64,000 nucleotides of DNA from Bradyrhizobium sp. CB1717. GTDB lineage: Bacteria > Pseudomonadota > Alphaproteobacteria > Rhizobiales > Xanthobacteraceae. The notes beneath the pieces were generated by a model that was not told the DNA's origin, made no database searches, and saw only the letters and a program-made list of their open reading frames with translations. The position numbers and the translations under genes were made by a program. Shown in pieces: positions 36,347 through 41,391 of the stretch. Within the stretch, counting starts at the first letter, position 1; the number at the start of each line of letters is the position of its first letter. The DNA is taken from contig NZ_CP121666.1 in the NCBI RefSeq assembly GCF_029714325.1, forward strand, positions 2,852,001 to 2,916,000, read 5' to 3'.

Positions 36347-36432
36347 CGTCATTGCGAGCGGAGCGAAGCAATCCAGGAATGCCCCCGCGGTGACAGTCTG
36401 GCTTGCTTCGTCGCTTCGCTCCTCGCAATGAC
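36347..36432. repeat. Palindromic repeat, GTCATTGCGAG family, copy 1
   Basis: Long imperfect inverted repeat: left arm begins CGTCATTGCGAGCGGAGCG and continues AAGCAATCCAG; right arm begins CTGGCTTGCTTC and ends CTCGCAATGAC. Further copies occur at 40137-40221 and 62400-62478. This motif is a familiar dispersed element of Bradyrhizobium and relatives. It lies between the SMP-30 and GNAT genes and would fold as a long hairpin in RNA. Confidence 0.85.
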
Positions 36433-36449: not shown

Positions 36450-37043
36450 ATGCCCTGGCCTGATCCCATCACCCTGCGCGGACAGCACGCCCGTCTCGAG
36501 CCGCTGTCGCCTCAGCATCGCGAGGGGCTGGTCGAGGCCGTCAAGGACGGCGAGCTGTCAAAACTCTGGTACACTGCGATCCCGCTGCCGGAGAACATGG
36601 GCAAGGAGATCGACCGCCGCCTCGGCTTGCAGGCTGCGGGCTCGATGCTGCCCTTCACCGTGTTCGACGCCGGCGGCAACATCGTCGGCATGACGACCTA
36701 CATGAACATCGATGCCACCAACCGCCGCGTCGAGATCGGCTCGACCTGGTACGGCAAGGGCGCGCAGCGCGGGCCGCTCAACACGCAGTGCAAGCTGCTC
36801 CTGCTCCGGCACGCCTTCGAGACGCTGAACTGCATCGCGGTCGAGTTCCGCACGCACTTCTTCAACCACCAGAGCCGCCGCGCCATCGAGCGCTTAGGGG
36901 CCAAGCAGGACGGCATTTTGCGCAGCCACCAGGTCGCGCCGAACGGCACGCTGCGCGATACTGTTGTTTACAGCATCACCGCCGCCGAATGGCCGACGGT
37001 GCAGGCGCATCTGGAATTTCAACTCAACGACAAGCCGCGCTAG
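36450..37043 (+). CDS. GNAT acetyltransferase, RimJ/RimL type
   Basis: 197 residues. Family layout: ITLRGQHARLEPLSPQHREG at the start, the central strand IVGMTTYMNIDATNRRVEIG, the STWYGKGAQRGPLNT acetyl-CoA-binding segment, and late VEFRTHFFNHQSRRAIERLG plus the closing KQDGILRSH, all typical of RimL-like acetyltransferases that modify N-termini of proteins or small amines. The start has GGAGAGAG upstream, inside the tail of the palindromic repeat region. The GMC oxidoreductase gene starts 16 bp after its stop, so the two are probably cotranscribed. Confidence 0.88.
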   Translation: MPWPDPITLRGQHARLEPLSPQHREGLVEAVKDGELSKLWYTAIPLPENMGKEIDRRLGLQAAGSMLPFTVFDAGGNIVGMTTYMNIDATNRRVEIGSTWYGKGAQRGPLNTQCKLLLLRHAFETLNCIAVEFRTHFFNHQSRRAIERLGAKQDGILRSHQVAPNGTLRDTVVYSITAAEWPTVQAHLEFQLNDKPR

Positions 37044-37059
37044 GGGCGGCCGAGGGACC

Positions 37060-38706
37060 ATGGATAGATTTGATTATGTGATCGTCGGCGCGGGCTCCGC
37101 CGGTTGCGTGCTCGCCAGCCGGCTCAGCGAAGATCCTGATATCAGCGTCTGCGTGCTCGAGGCGGGCCCCAGCGACTGGCACCCCTACATCCATCTGCCG
37201 GCGGGTTTCATAAAGACCTTCCACATGAAGAGCATCAACTGGGCCTACCAGCAGGAGCCCGGACCCTACACTGGCGGGCGCAGCATCTACGCGCCGCGCG
37301 GCAAGACGCTCGGCGGCTCGTCCTCGATCAACGGCCACATCTACAACCGCGGCCAGCGCATGGACTTCGACACCTGGGCGCAGATGGGCAATCGCGGCTG
37401 GGGCTATGCCGACGTGCTGCCTTACTTCAAGCGGCTGGAGAAACGCGTCGGCGAGGGCGAGGACACCTATCGCGGCCGCGACGGCAAGCTCACCGTCACG
37501 ACGATGGACTGGCGCGATCCGCTCTGCGAAGCCTTCATGGAAGGCGCAGTCTCGCTCGGCATCCCCCGCAACCCCGATTACAACGGCAAGACCCAGGAAG
37601 GCGTCTCCTACTGCCAGCGCACCATCGACAACGGCCTGCGCGTCTCCGGTTCGACCGCGTTCCTGAAGCCCGCGATGAAGCGCCCCAACGTGCATGTGCA
37701 TACGCATGCGCACGCGACCGAGATCATCTTCGAGGGCAAGCGTGCGGTCGGCGTGCGCTACACCAAGGGCGGCCGCGGCGGCCAGCCCGTCGAAGTGCGC
37801 GCCAACAAGGAAGTGATCCTCTCCGGCGGCACCTATAATTCGCCGCAGCTCCTGCAGCTCTCCGGCGTCGGCTCGCCCGATCTGTTGCAGCAGCACGGCA
37901 TCGCGGTGCGTCACGCGCTGCCCGTCGGCGAGGGCCTTCAAGATCACTACGCCCCCCGCACGGTGGCGCGCGTAAAAGACATCAAGACCATCAACGAGCT
38001 CCGCCGCGGTTTCTCGCTGTGGATCGAGGCGCTGAAATGGGCGACCGCGCGCCGCGGCCTGCTGTCGCTGTCGCCGACCATGGTCTATTGCTTCTGGCAT
38101 TCCGGCGAGAGCGCGGAGAGCTCCGACCTTCAGCTCACCTTCACGCCGGCGTCCTACAAGGAAGGCGTGCAGGGCCAGCTCGAGGACGAGCCCGGCATGA
38201 CGGTGGCCTCCTGGCAGCAGCGCCCGGAGAGCCGCGGCTATGTCCGCATCCGCTCCAGCGATCCATTCGCGCCGCCGATCATCCAGACCAACTATCTCGA
38301 CGCCGAGCTCGATCGCCGCGTCATCGTCGGCGGCATGAAGCTCGCGCGGCGTTTGCTGAAGTCGGCGCCGCTGTCGCCGTATTACGCCTACGAGGATTTC
38401 CCCGGCCCCAACGTCAACACCGACGACGAATTTTTGCACGCCGCCACCGAGCGCGGCACCACCACCTTCCACCCCGGCTGCACCTGCCGCATGGGCCCGG
38501 CGGATTCGACCTGGGCCGTGGTCGACGACCAGCTCCGCGTCCACGGCCTCGAAGGCCTCCGCGTCATCGACGCCTCGGTGATGCCGCGCATGATCTCGGC
38601 GAATTTGAATGCGTCAACGATGATGATCGCGGATCGTGCCTCGGACCTGATCCGCGGCAAGGCGCCGATGGAAGCCGCGCGCATTCCGGACGCCGCGGTG
38701 GCGTGA
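37060..38706 (+). CDS. GMC family FAD oxidoreductase (choline/alcohol dehydrogenase-like)
   Basis: 548 residues. The N-terminal FAD site is DYVIVGAGSAGCVLASRLSE, GMC signature 1 is in PRGKTLGGSSSINGHIYNRG, and signature 2 is in GGTYNSPQLLQLSGVG. The active-site His is in TTFHPGCTCRMG, and the C-terminal FAD-side block is VIDASVMPRMISANLNASTM. Comparable proteins oxidise alcohols such as choline or polyethylene-glycol-type and other aliphatic alcohols in the cytoplasm; the substrate cannot be named. It follows the GNAT gene closely. The repeat island begins 8 bp after its stop. Confidence 0.92.
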   Translation: MDRFDYVIVGAGSAGCVLASRLSEDPDISVCVLEAGPSDWHPYIHLPAGFIKTFHMKSINWAYQQEPGPYTGGRSIYAPRGKTLGGSSSINGHIYNRGQRMDFDTWAQMGNRGWGYADVLPYFKRLEKRVGEGEDTYRGRDGKLTVTTMDWRDPLCEAFMEGAVSLGIPRNPDYNGKTQEGVSYCQRTIDNGLRVSGSTAFLKPAMKRPNVHVHTHAHATEIIFEGKRAVGVRYTKGGRGGQPVEVRANKEVILSGGTYNSPQLLQLSGVGSPDLLQQHGIAVRHALPVGEGLQDHYAPRTVARVKDIKTINELRRGFSLWIEALKWATARRGLLSLSPTMVYCFWHSGESAESSDLQLTFTPASYKEGVQGQLEDEPGMTVASWQQRPESRGYVRIRSSDPFAPPIIQTNYLDAELDRRVIVGGMKLARRLLKSAPLSPYYAYEDFPGPNVNTDDEFLHAATERGTTTFHPGCTCRMGPADSTWAVVDDQLRVHGLEGLRVIDASVMPRMISANLNASTMMIADRASDLIRGKAPMEAARIPDAAVA

Positions 38707-38713
38707 CATCTTC

Positions 38714-38799
38714 GTAGGATGGGTAGAGCGAAGCGAAACCCATCATCGTGCAGCGCGTGCTCAAGCCCGATGGGTTTCGCTGCGCTCTACCCATCCTAC
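38714..38799. repeat. RAYT-flanking palindrome, left copy (REPIN-like)
   Basis: Inverted repeat with arms of about 31 bp: GTAGGATGGGTAGAGCGAAG at the left edge and GCTGCGCTCTACCCATCCTAC at the right edge, separated by a short non-palindromic centre. A near-identical copy is at 39393-39481, and the two bracket a REP-associated tyrosine transposase gene. This is the expected layout of a REP doublet (REPIN) and its transposase. Confidence 0.85.
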
Positions 38800-38830
38800 A
38801 AGAGCGATGACGTCTATCCGAGGTTGTGCC

Positions 38831-39265
38831 ATGATGAGACGCATGACCTCCTATCGGCGCAACTTCATTCCCGGCGGAAGCTTCTTCTTCACCGTCAATC
38901 TGGCCGATCGCCGGCGGTCGCTTCTGACGGCGAATATCGATATACTGCGCGCAGCATTTCTCGAGATCCGTCGAAGGCACCCGTTCACGATCGATGCGAT
39001 TGTGGTGCTGCCGGAGCATCTTCACACCGTCTGGACGATGCCGGACGGAGATGCCGATTTTGCAACGCGCTGGCGGCAGATCAAATCAGCCTTCTCTCGC
39101 AACCTCGCGTTTGATGAACCGGTCTCGGCCAGCCGCGCCGCCAGAGGGGAGCGTGGCATCTGGCAGCGGCGCTATTGGGAGCATACCATCCGCGACGAGG
39201 AGGACTATGCTCGGCACATCGACTATGTGTATATCAACCCGGTCAAGCACGGACTCGTCGATTGA
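38831..39265 (+). CDS. REP-associated tyrosine transposase (RAYT, IS200-like TnpA_REP)
   Basis: 144 residues. Y1 HUH-type nuclease: the HUH motif is HLH at residues 63-65 (LPEHLHTVW), and the catalytic Tyr lies in the helix EDYARHIDYVYINPVKHGLV near the C-terminus. The opening YRRNFIPGGSFFFTVNLADR and the middle WQRRYWEHTIRDEEDY are characteristic of RAYTs. Family members nick and join single-stranded DNA at REP palindromes and are usually single-copy domesticated genes. It is bracketed by two copies of one palindrome (38714-38799 and 39393-39481). ATGs at 38831, 38834 and 38843 are possible; GAGG at 38819 favours the first. The frame is intact. Confidence 0.92.
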   Translation: MMRRMTSYRRNFIPGGSFFFTVNLADRRRSLLTANIDILRAAFLEIRRRHPFTIDAIVVLPEHLHTVWTMPDGDADFATRWRQIKSAFSRNLAFDEPVSASRAARGERGIWQRRYWEHTIRDEEDYARHIDYVYINPVKHGLVD

Positions 39266-39392
39266 GTTACGGATTGGGCTCCTTCTTCGTTCCATCGCCA
39301 TGTAGAACTCGGGAACTATCCATCAGACTGGGCTGGCGATCTGTCGCAATATAATGACGGTGCCAAGTTCGGAGAGCGAAGTTGACGGAGCC

Positions 39393-39481
39393 GTAGGATG
39401 GGTAGAGCGCAGCGAAACCCATCATCGTGCGGCGTTCGCGGAAGGCGCTTGATGGGTTTCGCTGCGCTCTACCCATCCTAC
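39393..39481. repeat. RAYT-flanking palindrome, right copy (REPIN-like)
   Basis: Second copy of the element at 38714-38799, with the same edges (GTAGGATGGGTAGAGCGCAG at the left, CTACCCATCCTAC at the right) and nearly the same arms but a different centre. It begins 128 bp after the transposase stop. The arms differ between copies by only a few bases. Confidence 0.85.
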
Positions 39482-40136: not shown

Positions 40137-40221
40137 GTCATTGCGAGGAGCCCTTGCGACGAAGCAATCCAGAGTCTTGCCGCGGAAGGATTCTGGATTG
40201 CTTCGCTGCGCTCGCAATGAC
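40137..40221. repeat. Palindromic repeat, GTCATTGCGAG family, copy 2
   Basis: Left arm GTCATTGCGAGGAGCCCTTG then GCGACGAAGCAATCCAGA; right arm TCTGGATTGCTTCGCTGCG then CTCGCAATGAC. Same family as 36347-36432 and 62400-62478. It sits in the repeat island between the dispersed element and the next palindrome. Confidence 0.85.
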
Positions 40222-40257
40222 GAGATTGGGGAAGCTGCTTGCGACACACTCGATATC

Positions 40258-40351
40258 GTAGGGTGGGCAAAGCGAAAGCGTGCCCACGATCTTATGCGTC
40301 GTCCGCGATCGGAATGGTGGGCACGGCGCTCTGCGCCTTTGCCCACCCTAC
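40258..40351. repeat. Palindromic repeat, GTAGGGTGGGCAAAG family, copy 1
   Basis: Left arm GTAGGGTGGGCAAAGCGAAAG then CGTGCCCAC; right arm GTGGGCACGGCGCTCTGCGC then CTTTGCCCACCCTAC. A second copy is at 59948-60039. The outer sequence resembles that of the RAYT-flanking palindromes (GTAGG-TGGG--AG-GCGAA), so the two families may share an origin. Confidence 0.8.
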
Positions 40352-40403
40352 GGCACTGCGGTCGCAATGACGAGGTGGGAGAGCGCACAACTGTCTCCCC
40401 AGC

Positions 40404-40548: not shown

Positions 40549-41391
40549 CTACACTTCCCTTCTGCTCAAAAACGCCAGCCGCTCGAACAGGTGCACGTCC
40601 TGCTCGTTCTTGAGCAGCGCGCCGTGCAGCGGCGGGATCAGTTTTCGCGGATCCCGTTCCCTCAACTGCTCGACGCTCATGTCCTCGTTGAGCAGCAGCT
40701 TGAGCCAGTCGAGCAGCTCCGACGTGGACGGCTTCTTCTTCAGGCCGGGCACCTCGCGGACCTCGAAGAAGATGCGCAACGCTTCCTCGACGAGGCGCTT
40801 CTTGATGCCGGGGAAGTGGACGTCGACGATGCGATGCATGGTGTCGGCATCGGGGAACTTGATGTAGTGGAAGAAGCAGCGGCGCAGGAAGGCGTCCGGC
40901 AGCTCCTTCTCGTTGTTGGAGGTGATCATCATGATCGGGCGCTGCTTGGCCTTGATCGTCTCGCCGGTCTCGTAGACATGGAATTCCATGCGGTCGAGCT
41001 CGAGCAGGAGGTCGTTGGGGAATTCGATGTCGGCCTTGTCGATCTCGTCGATCAGCAGCACCGGGCGCTGCTCGGCCGTGAAGGCCTCCCACAGCTTCCC
41101 GCGCTTGATGTAGTTCCTGATGTCGGAGACGCGGGCATCGCCGAGCTGGCTGTCGCGCAGGCGCGACACCGCGTCGTATTCGTAGAGACCCTGCTGCGCC
41201 TTGGTGGTGGACTTGATGTGCCAGGTCAGAAGCGGCGCGTTCAGCGCCTTCGCCACTTCTTCCGCCAGCACCGTCTTGCCGGTGCCGGGCTCGCCCTTCA
41301 CCAGGAGCGGGCGCTCCAGCACGATCGAGGCATTGACGGCGACCTTGAGATCGTCGGTCGCAACATAGTCCTTGGTGCCGGTAAATTTCAT
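40549..41391 (-). CDS. MoxR-family AAA ATPase
   Basis: 280 residues. Walker A GEPGTGKT at 33-40, Walker B LLIDEIDK at about 112-119, and sensor 1 in MMITSNNEKELPDAFLRRC (sensor and arginine-finger region). MoxR ATPases act as chaperone-like remodelling enzymes, usually paired with a von Willebrand A-domain protein. Here the VWA gene is on the opposite strand 465 bp away, with a small membrane-protein gene between them. AAGGA lies at suitable spacing before the ATG. The target complex is unknown; maturation of metalloenzymes is one possibility (CoxD/CoxE-like pairing). Confidence 0.92.
   Translation of the reverse strand: MKFTGTKDYVATDDLKVAVNASIVLERPLLVKGEPGTGKTVLAEEVAKALNAPLLTWHIKSTTKAQQGLYEYDAVSRLRDSQLGDARVSDIRNYIKRGKLWEAFTAEQRPVLLIDEIDKADIEFPNDLLLELDRMEFHVYETGETIKAKQRPIMMITSNNEKELPDAFLRRCFFHYIKFPDADTMHRIVDVHFPGIKKRLVEEALRIFFEVREVPGLKKKPSTSELLDWLKLLLNEDMSVEQLRERDPRKLIPPLHGALLKNEQDVHLFERLAFLSRREV

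Follow-up and report, generated by a model that had tools for sequence, protein, structure and literature searches.

The locus examined here lies in a 64-kb stretch of Bradyrhizobium DNA (the window) and is very probably a REPtron, inherited at one site in one Bradyrhizobium clade, whose RAYT has recently been truncated and is predicted to be inactive, so that the REPINs of this genome would be fossils for now. The locus had been taken for a working REPtron when it was read from its sequence alone, and that reading is corrected here to one of a recently broken REPtron. The system itself is already known; the details of its sequence and the truncation are local.

In the mechanism that we propose, the ancestral RAYT would have been a HUH endonuclease acting on single-stranded DNA and close to the TnpAREP of E. 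coli, recognising a GTAG-tagged REP hairpin with a 7-bp stem and an internal mismatch loop, and it would have copied entire REP doublets into new sites. The local gene of this genome would lately have gained a premature stop, and the resulting 140-residue product, with its catalytic residues kept and its C-terminal helix and tail gone, is predicted to be unable to bind or cleave REPs. The fossil status of the REPINs, of which there are at least 24, would hold unless they are served by another RAYT.

The RAYT gene and its chromosomal site

The locus comprises the following features (window coordinates):

36964-38706, + strand: GMC oxidoreductase, upstream neighbour (Pfam PF00732, PF05199), syntenic anchor
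38714-38799, no strand: left REPIN, made of REP 38714-38744 (+) and REP 38769-38799 (-), GTAG start in both, spacer 24 nt
38843-39265, + strand: RAYT gene as now read, with the premature TGA at its end; an in-frame ATG lies upstream at 38831
39017-39025, + strand: HUH motif H-L-H, codons 63-65 counted from 38831 (H59 and H61, invariant in an alignment of 26 RAYTs)
39224-39226, + strand: putative catalytic Tyr codon, Y132, aligned with Y115 of TnpAREP 4ER8
39263-39265, + strand: premature in-frame TGA, codon 145, found in none of the other RAYTs compared
39266-39385, + strand: RAYT tail past the TGA, 39 codons long and closed by the normal stop codon (39383-39385)
39393-39481, no strand: right REPIN, made of REP 39393-39423 (+) and REP 39451-39481 (-)
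40549-41391, - strand: AAA ATPase, downstream neighbour (Pfam AAA_5), syntenic anchor, which we take to be MoxR-like

The open reading frame 38831-39265 scores 184.3 bits against the NCBIfam RAYT model NF047646 (cut-off 80), a model of 146 positions outside which the missing tail lies, and it aligns with PDB 4ER8, the E. coli TnpAREP, to which the 180-residue intact orthologue is matched over its residues 1-174 (E 1.7e-55). As expected of a RAYT, the sequence holds a HUH motif and what appears to be a single catalytic Tyr (the residue named Y115 for TnpAREP in the cited passages of PMC8266576), and REPs both adjoin the gene and are dispersed through the genome. An IS200/IS605 insertion sequence was considered and rejected, the score being 17.6 bits for NF033573 (cut-off 55) and 22 for Pfam Y1_Tnp (cut-off 23), and the two other RAYTs of the genome being only 64 and 55% identical to this one, which is not the picture of a multi-copy element. 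The sequence-only reading had described a RAYT of 144 residues with an HLH motif and a C-terminal Tyr; the family, the motif and the Tyr are borne out, no loss of these residues being seen, but the length is not, as the start codon of the relatives aligns with the ATG at 38843 and the product is thus probably of 140 instead of 144 amino acids.

The RAYT belongs to a clade, clade I (82-100% identity), that is found in ten genomes, this one included, and it lies at the equivalent site in the nine others. Both neighbours, the GMC oxidoreductase and the AAA ATPase, are visible in G029, G079, G056, G096, G058 and G086, and the view is partial in G071 (oxidoreductase side and part of the intergenic region), G072 (oxidoreductase side only) and G013 (ATPase side only). 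Such inheritance agrees with the passages taken from PMC8049555, in which RAYTs are vertically inherited single-copy genes. Other genomes hold both neighbours without a RAYT, for example at L203, and at L214 and L216 a lone REPIN stands at the 3′ end of the GMC oxidoreductase with no RAYT, where clade I has the order REPIN-RAYT-REPIN. The latter arrangement could have arisen by loss of the RAYT through recombination between the direct-repeat REPINs, or the REPIN could be older than the RAYT.

The premature stop and the missing tail

The frame had been described as intact in the sequence-only reading, which does not hold: a premature TGA at 39263-39265 interrupts the frame, which goes on to 39383-39385 and in translation past the TGA gives a recognisable RAYT tail, the TGA being the only lesion. 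None of the nine clade I relatives has a stop at codon 145. Eight of them reach the normal end; the alignment of the ninth (L035) goes as far as codon 152, where 25 bases of its stretch are left. The stop takes off the last 40 residues and leaves the HUH motif and the Tyr in place.

Neither a programmed stop nor a recurrent short form is indicated by the comparisons. The genus search returned 15 stop-bearing RAYT matches, and in none of the 14 others does the alignment place a stop at codon 145: eight have theirs elsewhere (that of L022 is codon 3, ahead of the conserved start), and in six the alignment spans codon 145 without a stop, the stop position lying elsewhere. Among the 120 best listed homologues in a search of 5.8 billion proteins, 118 are of 168-203 aa; the other two are short (142 and 144 aa), yet both extend past the last codon of the window copy, by 2-4 residues, and their contigs measure no more than 985 and 2366 bases.

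The part that is missing is well conserved. In the alignment of 26 RAYTs (alignment A1), 12 of the 57 invariant columns fall beyond the stop, and the predicted structure of the intact orthologue (mean pLDDT 81.6) puts a confidently predicted helix at residues 150-155, within the missing part. The truncated product would end at the position aligned with residue 127 of 4ER8, and in this it differs from E. coli TnpAREP, lacking the counterpart of residues 128-165. According to the cited passages of PMC8266576, E. coli TnpAREP shortened at its C-terminus by 34 or 21 residues, so that it ends at 131 or 144, is seriously defective, while removal of the last 13 residues raises the activity; the loss in the window product is larger than in any of these E. 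coli deletions. The same passages give the C-terminal tail as needed for REP binding, and the window copy is not a full-length group 2 RAYT with such a tail. A Gly-Glu pair near the C-terminus of the intact orthologue (G177-E178) is also invariant in alignment A1, and G160-E161 of E. coli TnpAREP are described in that source as contacting GTAG. However, we did not retain the two pairs as equivalent, since an ungapped alignment sets the E. coli pair four residues earlier; they may at most correspond. Because the tail with its invariant columns and the predicted helix are missing, to an extent beyond the defective E. coli deletions, the truncated product is probably inactive.

It could be argued that the short protein, or a read-through product, is functional and that the tail is regulatory, given the more active E. 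coli form without its last 13 residues, the catalytic residues kept here, and a tail sequence that has no amino-acid change past the stop. We regard this as very unlikely, in view of an end that falls short of both defective E. coli forms in the cited passages, of the invariant columns and helix that are lost, and of the 14 other stop-bearing matches, which give no sign of a programmed stop.

As for the age of the stop, the dN/dS ratio over codons 5-144 is 0.076 relative to the nearest relative (G029). With changes assigned by the outgroup majority, the window branch carries 13 synonymous and two amino-acid changes before the stop and five synonymous and no amino-acid changes after it. These substitutions indicate that the RAYT lineage was under purifying selection before the truncation; thus the claim of the sequence-only reading that the gene is under selection stands for the lineage and fails for the present copy, which ends 40 residues early. 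The five synonymous and zero amino-acid changes beyond the stop point to a tail that was constrained over most of the branch, and therefore to a young stop, which from the sequences compared is either recent or else a sequencing error. An error of sequencing or assembly, in which case the strain would have an intact RAYT, would account for both the unchanged tail and the stop as sole lesion, but a recent real mutation would give the identical picture, and the genome is a single contig with a completeness of 100, which speaks for a good assembly even though one wrong base is still possible. We consider an error unlikely and retain a recent, real truncation. The nearest relatives, with open genes at the equivalent site, offer a test of how long a population of REPINs persists without its enzyme.

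REPINs at the locus and across the genome

The two palindromes that flank the gene measure 86 bp (left) and 89 bp (right), and their arms of 31-32 nt are complementary at 97 and 100%. The spacers are of 24-25 nt and differ in sequence; in the right element there are 27 nt between the 31-nt units, or 25 nt if the arms are taken as 32 nt. The coordinates, the shared arms and the different centres agree with what had been noted from the sequence. As single-strand DNA both fold far more stably than shuffled sequences (z -12.5 on the left, -13.5 on the right). Each palindrome consists of two facing copies of a 31-nt unit with GTAG at its start, so that GTAG stands at both outer ends of both elements, and the two elements lie in direct repeat. 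Taken alone, a REP folds with GTAG (4 nt) ahead of a 7-bp stem, which is followed by a 3/3 internal mismatch loop and then by two GC pairs, with z values of -4.0 and -2.9 (for the latter, 2 of 200 shuffles were equal). The REPs of the locus thus have the GTAG and the stem broken by an internal loop that define group 2 REPs in the literature passages used, and two inverted REPs make one hairpin, from which each flanking palindrome is a REP doublet, that is, a REPIN as Bertels and Rainey use the term in the cited passages of PMC3116915. The edge 16-mer, with up to three mismatches, occurs six times in the window against 0.18 expected.

The genome, of 9.23 Mb, holds at least 24 REPINs, a lower bound made up of 23 distinct places from a DNA search in which 40 of 81 candidates were scored and one degenerate pair from a pattern search. 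With up to two mismatches the edge 16-mer is found 54 times, against five for the reversed control. The genome-wide count that had been proposed as a check thus came out well away from an absence of other copies. Some ends elsewhere have decayed (GTTG at one start, CTTC at one end). A stop-free frame of at least 200 aa, which is a crude proxy for genes and independent of annotation, spans 10 of the 24 REPINs, in comparison with 89% (0.889) of random 86-bp stretches of the window, and the REPINs are thus mostly extragenic. Exact A-type edge 16-mers number 37 in this genome, within the clade I range of 7-45, and by this count no decay of the REPINs after the truncation is seen.

Among 12 dispersed REPINs the arms are alike and the identity of the spacers has a median of 52% and a maximum of 72% (66 pairs). 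A cluster of five A-type REPINs in 4 kb (L188, G000:C1:7104260-7108284) includes three whose spacers are 96-100% identical and whose flanks align only to 62-63%. Because the spacers are near-identical while the flanks are unrelated, the cluster suggests that whole REP doublets were copied, at least locally; no insertion at the level of strains was seen. Several REPINs of this cluster carry an additional GCCC...GGGC edge.

The palindromes might instead be merely transcription terminators or mRNA hairpins, maintained for that role and immobile in the genome, since both window copies lie just 3′ of a gene and fold strongly. Terminators require no GTAG tag. Such a role alone would also have to explain arms that are sequence-specific and kept at 24 places with mostly unrelated spacers, entire doublets copied within unrelated flanks, and an arm sequence that tracks the RAYT clade, and we find it extremely improbable. 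Taken as a REPIN-RAYT system, the locus shares with the one described in the passages of PMC3116915 the hairpin-forming pairs of inverted REPs, which are dispersed outside genes and lie near specific RAYTs, and differs from it in the REP sequence, in the truncated RAYT and in flanking elements that are both complete doublets in direct repeat. The sequence-only proposal of a RAYT with its REP doublets, a REPtron, is supported by the family model, the match to PDB 4ER8, the at least 24 REPINs and the clade-specific REPs in the genus.

In the open literature, PMC3733652 (2013) was the sole paper found on RAYT and Bradyrhizobium. It deals with GTAG REP families and REPtrons in Bradyrhizobium and Rhodopseudomonas, and the cited passages place GTAG-3 and GTAG-14 REPs in Bradyrhizobium, describe the rhizobial GTAG-3 as having simple loops flanked by GC, and report that species with several GTAG families have repeat-specific REPtrons. 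The edge GTAGGATGGG is absent from its main text, the part compared.

RAYT clades and REP types in the genus

Of the 117 genomes in the genus search, 76 have a RAYT match with an E value of 1e-20 or lower. Flanks were read at 92 loci (L016, L017, L018-L047 and L128-L187), then at 17 (L226-L242) and then at two, L243 being a longer copy of L230; this reading left out 80 named loci (L048-L127) and some RAYT matches under about 64% identity. The REPs fall into types with A, T or G at base 12. Those of clade I are A-type (GTAGGATGGGTAGAGC); in the next closest clade, which shares about 68-76% identity, they are of T-type (TTGAGC), G-type (TGGAGC) or again A-type. Beyond these clades most RAYTs are flanked by none of the three types, or by GTAGGGTGGGCAAAGC; one RAYT with G-type REPs, L134, has an identity of just 56%. 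Placed on a tree of 48 RAYTs, the six REP labels need 8 changes, compared with 26.5 when the labels are shuffled.

Exact edges were counted in 117 genomes, and the final groups include RAYTs, mostly broken, that were typed in six further genomes. The median number of A edges is 19 in the 17 genomes that have an A-type RAYT or its relic, versus 4 in the rest (AUC 0.80, p 3e-5); that of T edges is 4.5 in the 20 genomes with a T-type, versus 1 (AUC 0.85, p 1e-7), and that of G edges is 21.5 in the 8 genomes with a G-type, versus 1 (AUC 0.93, p 1e-5). These p values overstate the evidence since the genomes are related. Mismatched combinations of RAYT and edge gave AUC values of 0.43-0.69, two of the six at p < 0.05 (0.019 and 0.034). 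An earlier grouping (14, 19 and 6 genomes) had medians of 25 vs 4 for A, 4 vs 1 for T and 21 vs 1 for G. In these comparisons the mixed loci L039 and L044 were entered under T as well as under G, broken RAYTs counted as typed (for example L128, L134, L232-L236 and L244), and the fragment L245, which has one A-type REP and lies in a genome (G039) with 18 A edges, stayed outside group A, as its flanks were read once the grouping was complete. The type of REP thus goes with the clade of the RAYT, and each type is most abundant in genomes that have the matching RAYT or its relic. This agreement of clade, REP type and abundance amounts to a comparative test of specificity across the genus, in which the switching of types provides a usable specificity panel. 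Apparently broken RAYTs, seen in several genomes as split or partial matches (L232-L236 and L244), are still flanked by their own REP type, for example in G100 with its 96 G-type edges, and are further cases of a REP population next to a damaged RAYT.

The correlation between palindrome and RAYT clade that the sequence-only reading had proposed to examine is therefore positive, although imperfect. Twelve genomes (G002, G004, G012, G019, G020, G037, G044, G066, G073, G082, G103 and G108) have at least 30 A edges and no A-type RAYT; four of them are without any RAYT match and in the other eight the flanks of every RAYT match were read. A rule that REPs need their RAYT has to be given up on these grounds, and present REP abundance does not require the gene. 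Either the RAYT was lost and the REPINs persisted in these genomes, or they are served by another RAYT.

The second of these possibilities also bears on the genome under study, which has two more RAYTs with full-length frames, L016 and L017. If either moved A-type REPINs in trans, the local gene would be dispensable, and the A-rich genomes without an A-type RAYT would be in keeping with this. However, L016 is flanked by GTAGGGTGGATTAGCC and L017 by GTAGCCCGGATGNAGC, REPs other than the A-type, and each RAYT type predicts its own REP best, which makes service in trans improbable. With up to one mismatch, the genome has 22 matches to the GTAGGGTGGATTAGCC edge and 198 to the GTAGCCCGGATGNAGC edge, where the reversed controls gave 0 and 1, and this fits one REP type per RAYT. 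Our preferred reading remains that of REPINs whose own RAYT, inherited at this site, has recently been truncated, and which would be products of that local gene.

The switches between REP types might be used to look for the residues that read base 12, the base with which the internal loop of the REP fold begins. In the cited passages of PMC8266576 the E. coli REP, which shares with that of Bradyrhizobium the GTAG tag and a stem broken at base 12, has the bulge A12A13-G26C27, whose A12 bears the same number as the variable base. A first residue scan with free residue sets was over-fitted and was discarded. Fourteen RAYT columns separate clade I from the T-type RAYTs. Of these, only columns 97 and 124 (numbered as in the window) hold for the held-out A-type and G-type clades too, each sorting 8 of 8 with the mixed loci omitted; column 70 obeys the opposite rule. 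Column 97 lies within a stretch of 13 residues that the Bradyrhizobium RAYT has in addition to those of E. coli TnpAREP, shortly after the segment with K82 (helix alpha3, as named in those passages). We tentatively suggest, with considerable doubt given that just two or three independent switches underlie this lead, that RAYTs within one genus have switched REP specificity at base 12, which may be read by the variable segment after the DNA-binding helix (residue 97) together with residue 124. If true, Bradyrhizobium would be a natural panel that could yield the REP-recognition code of RAYTs.

Other palindromes occur in the window. A different GTAG palindrome with GTAGGGTGGGCAAAGC edges lies at 40257-40352, of the type that flanks RAYTs of about 50-55% identity in other genomes; this type was absent from the roughly 220 bases on each side of L016 and L017. 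Two palindromes of CGTCATTGCGAGC type, at 36347-36432 and 40137-40222, resemble the CGTC repeats described in the cited passages of PMC3733652.
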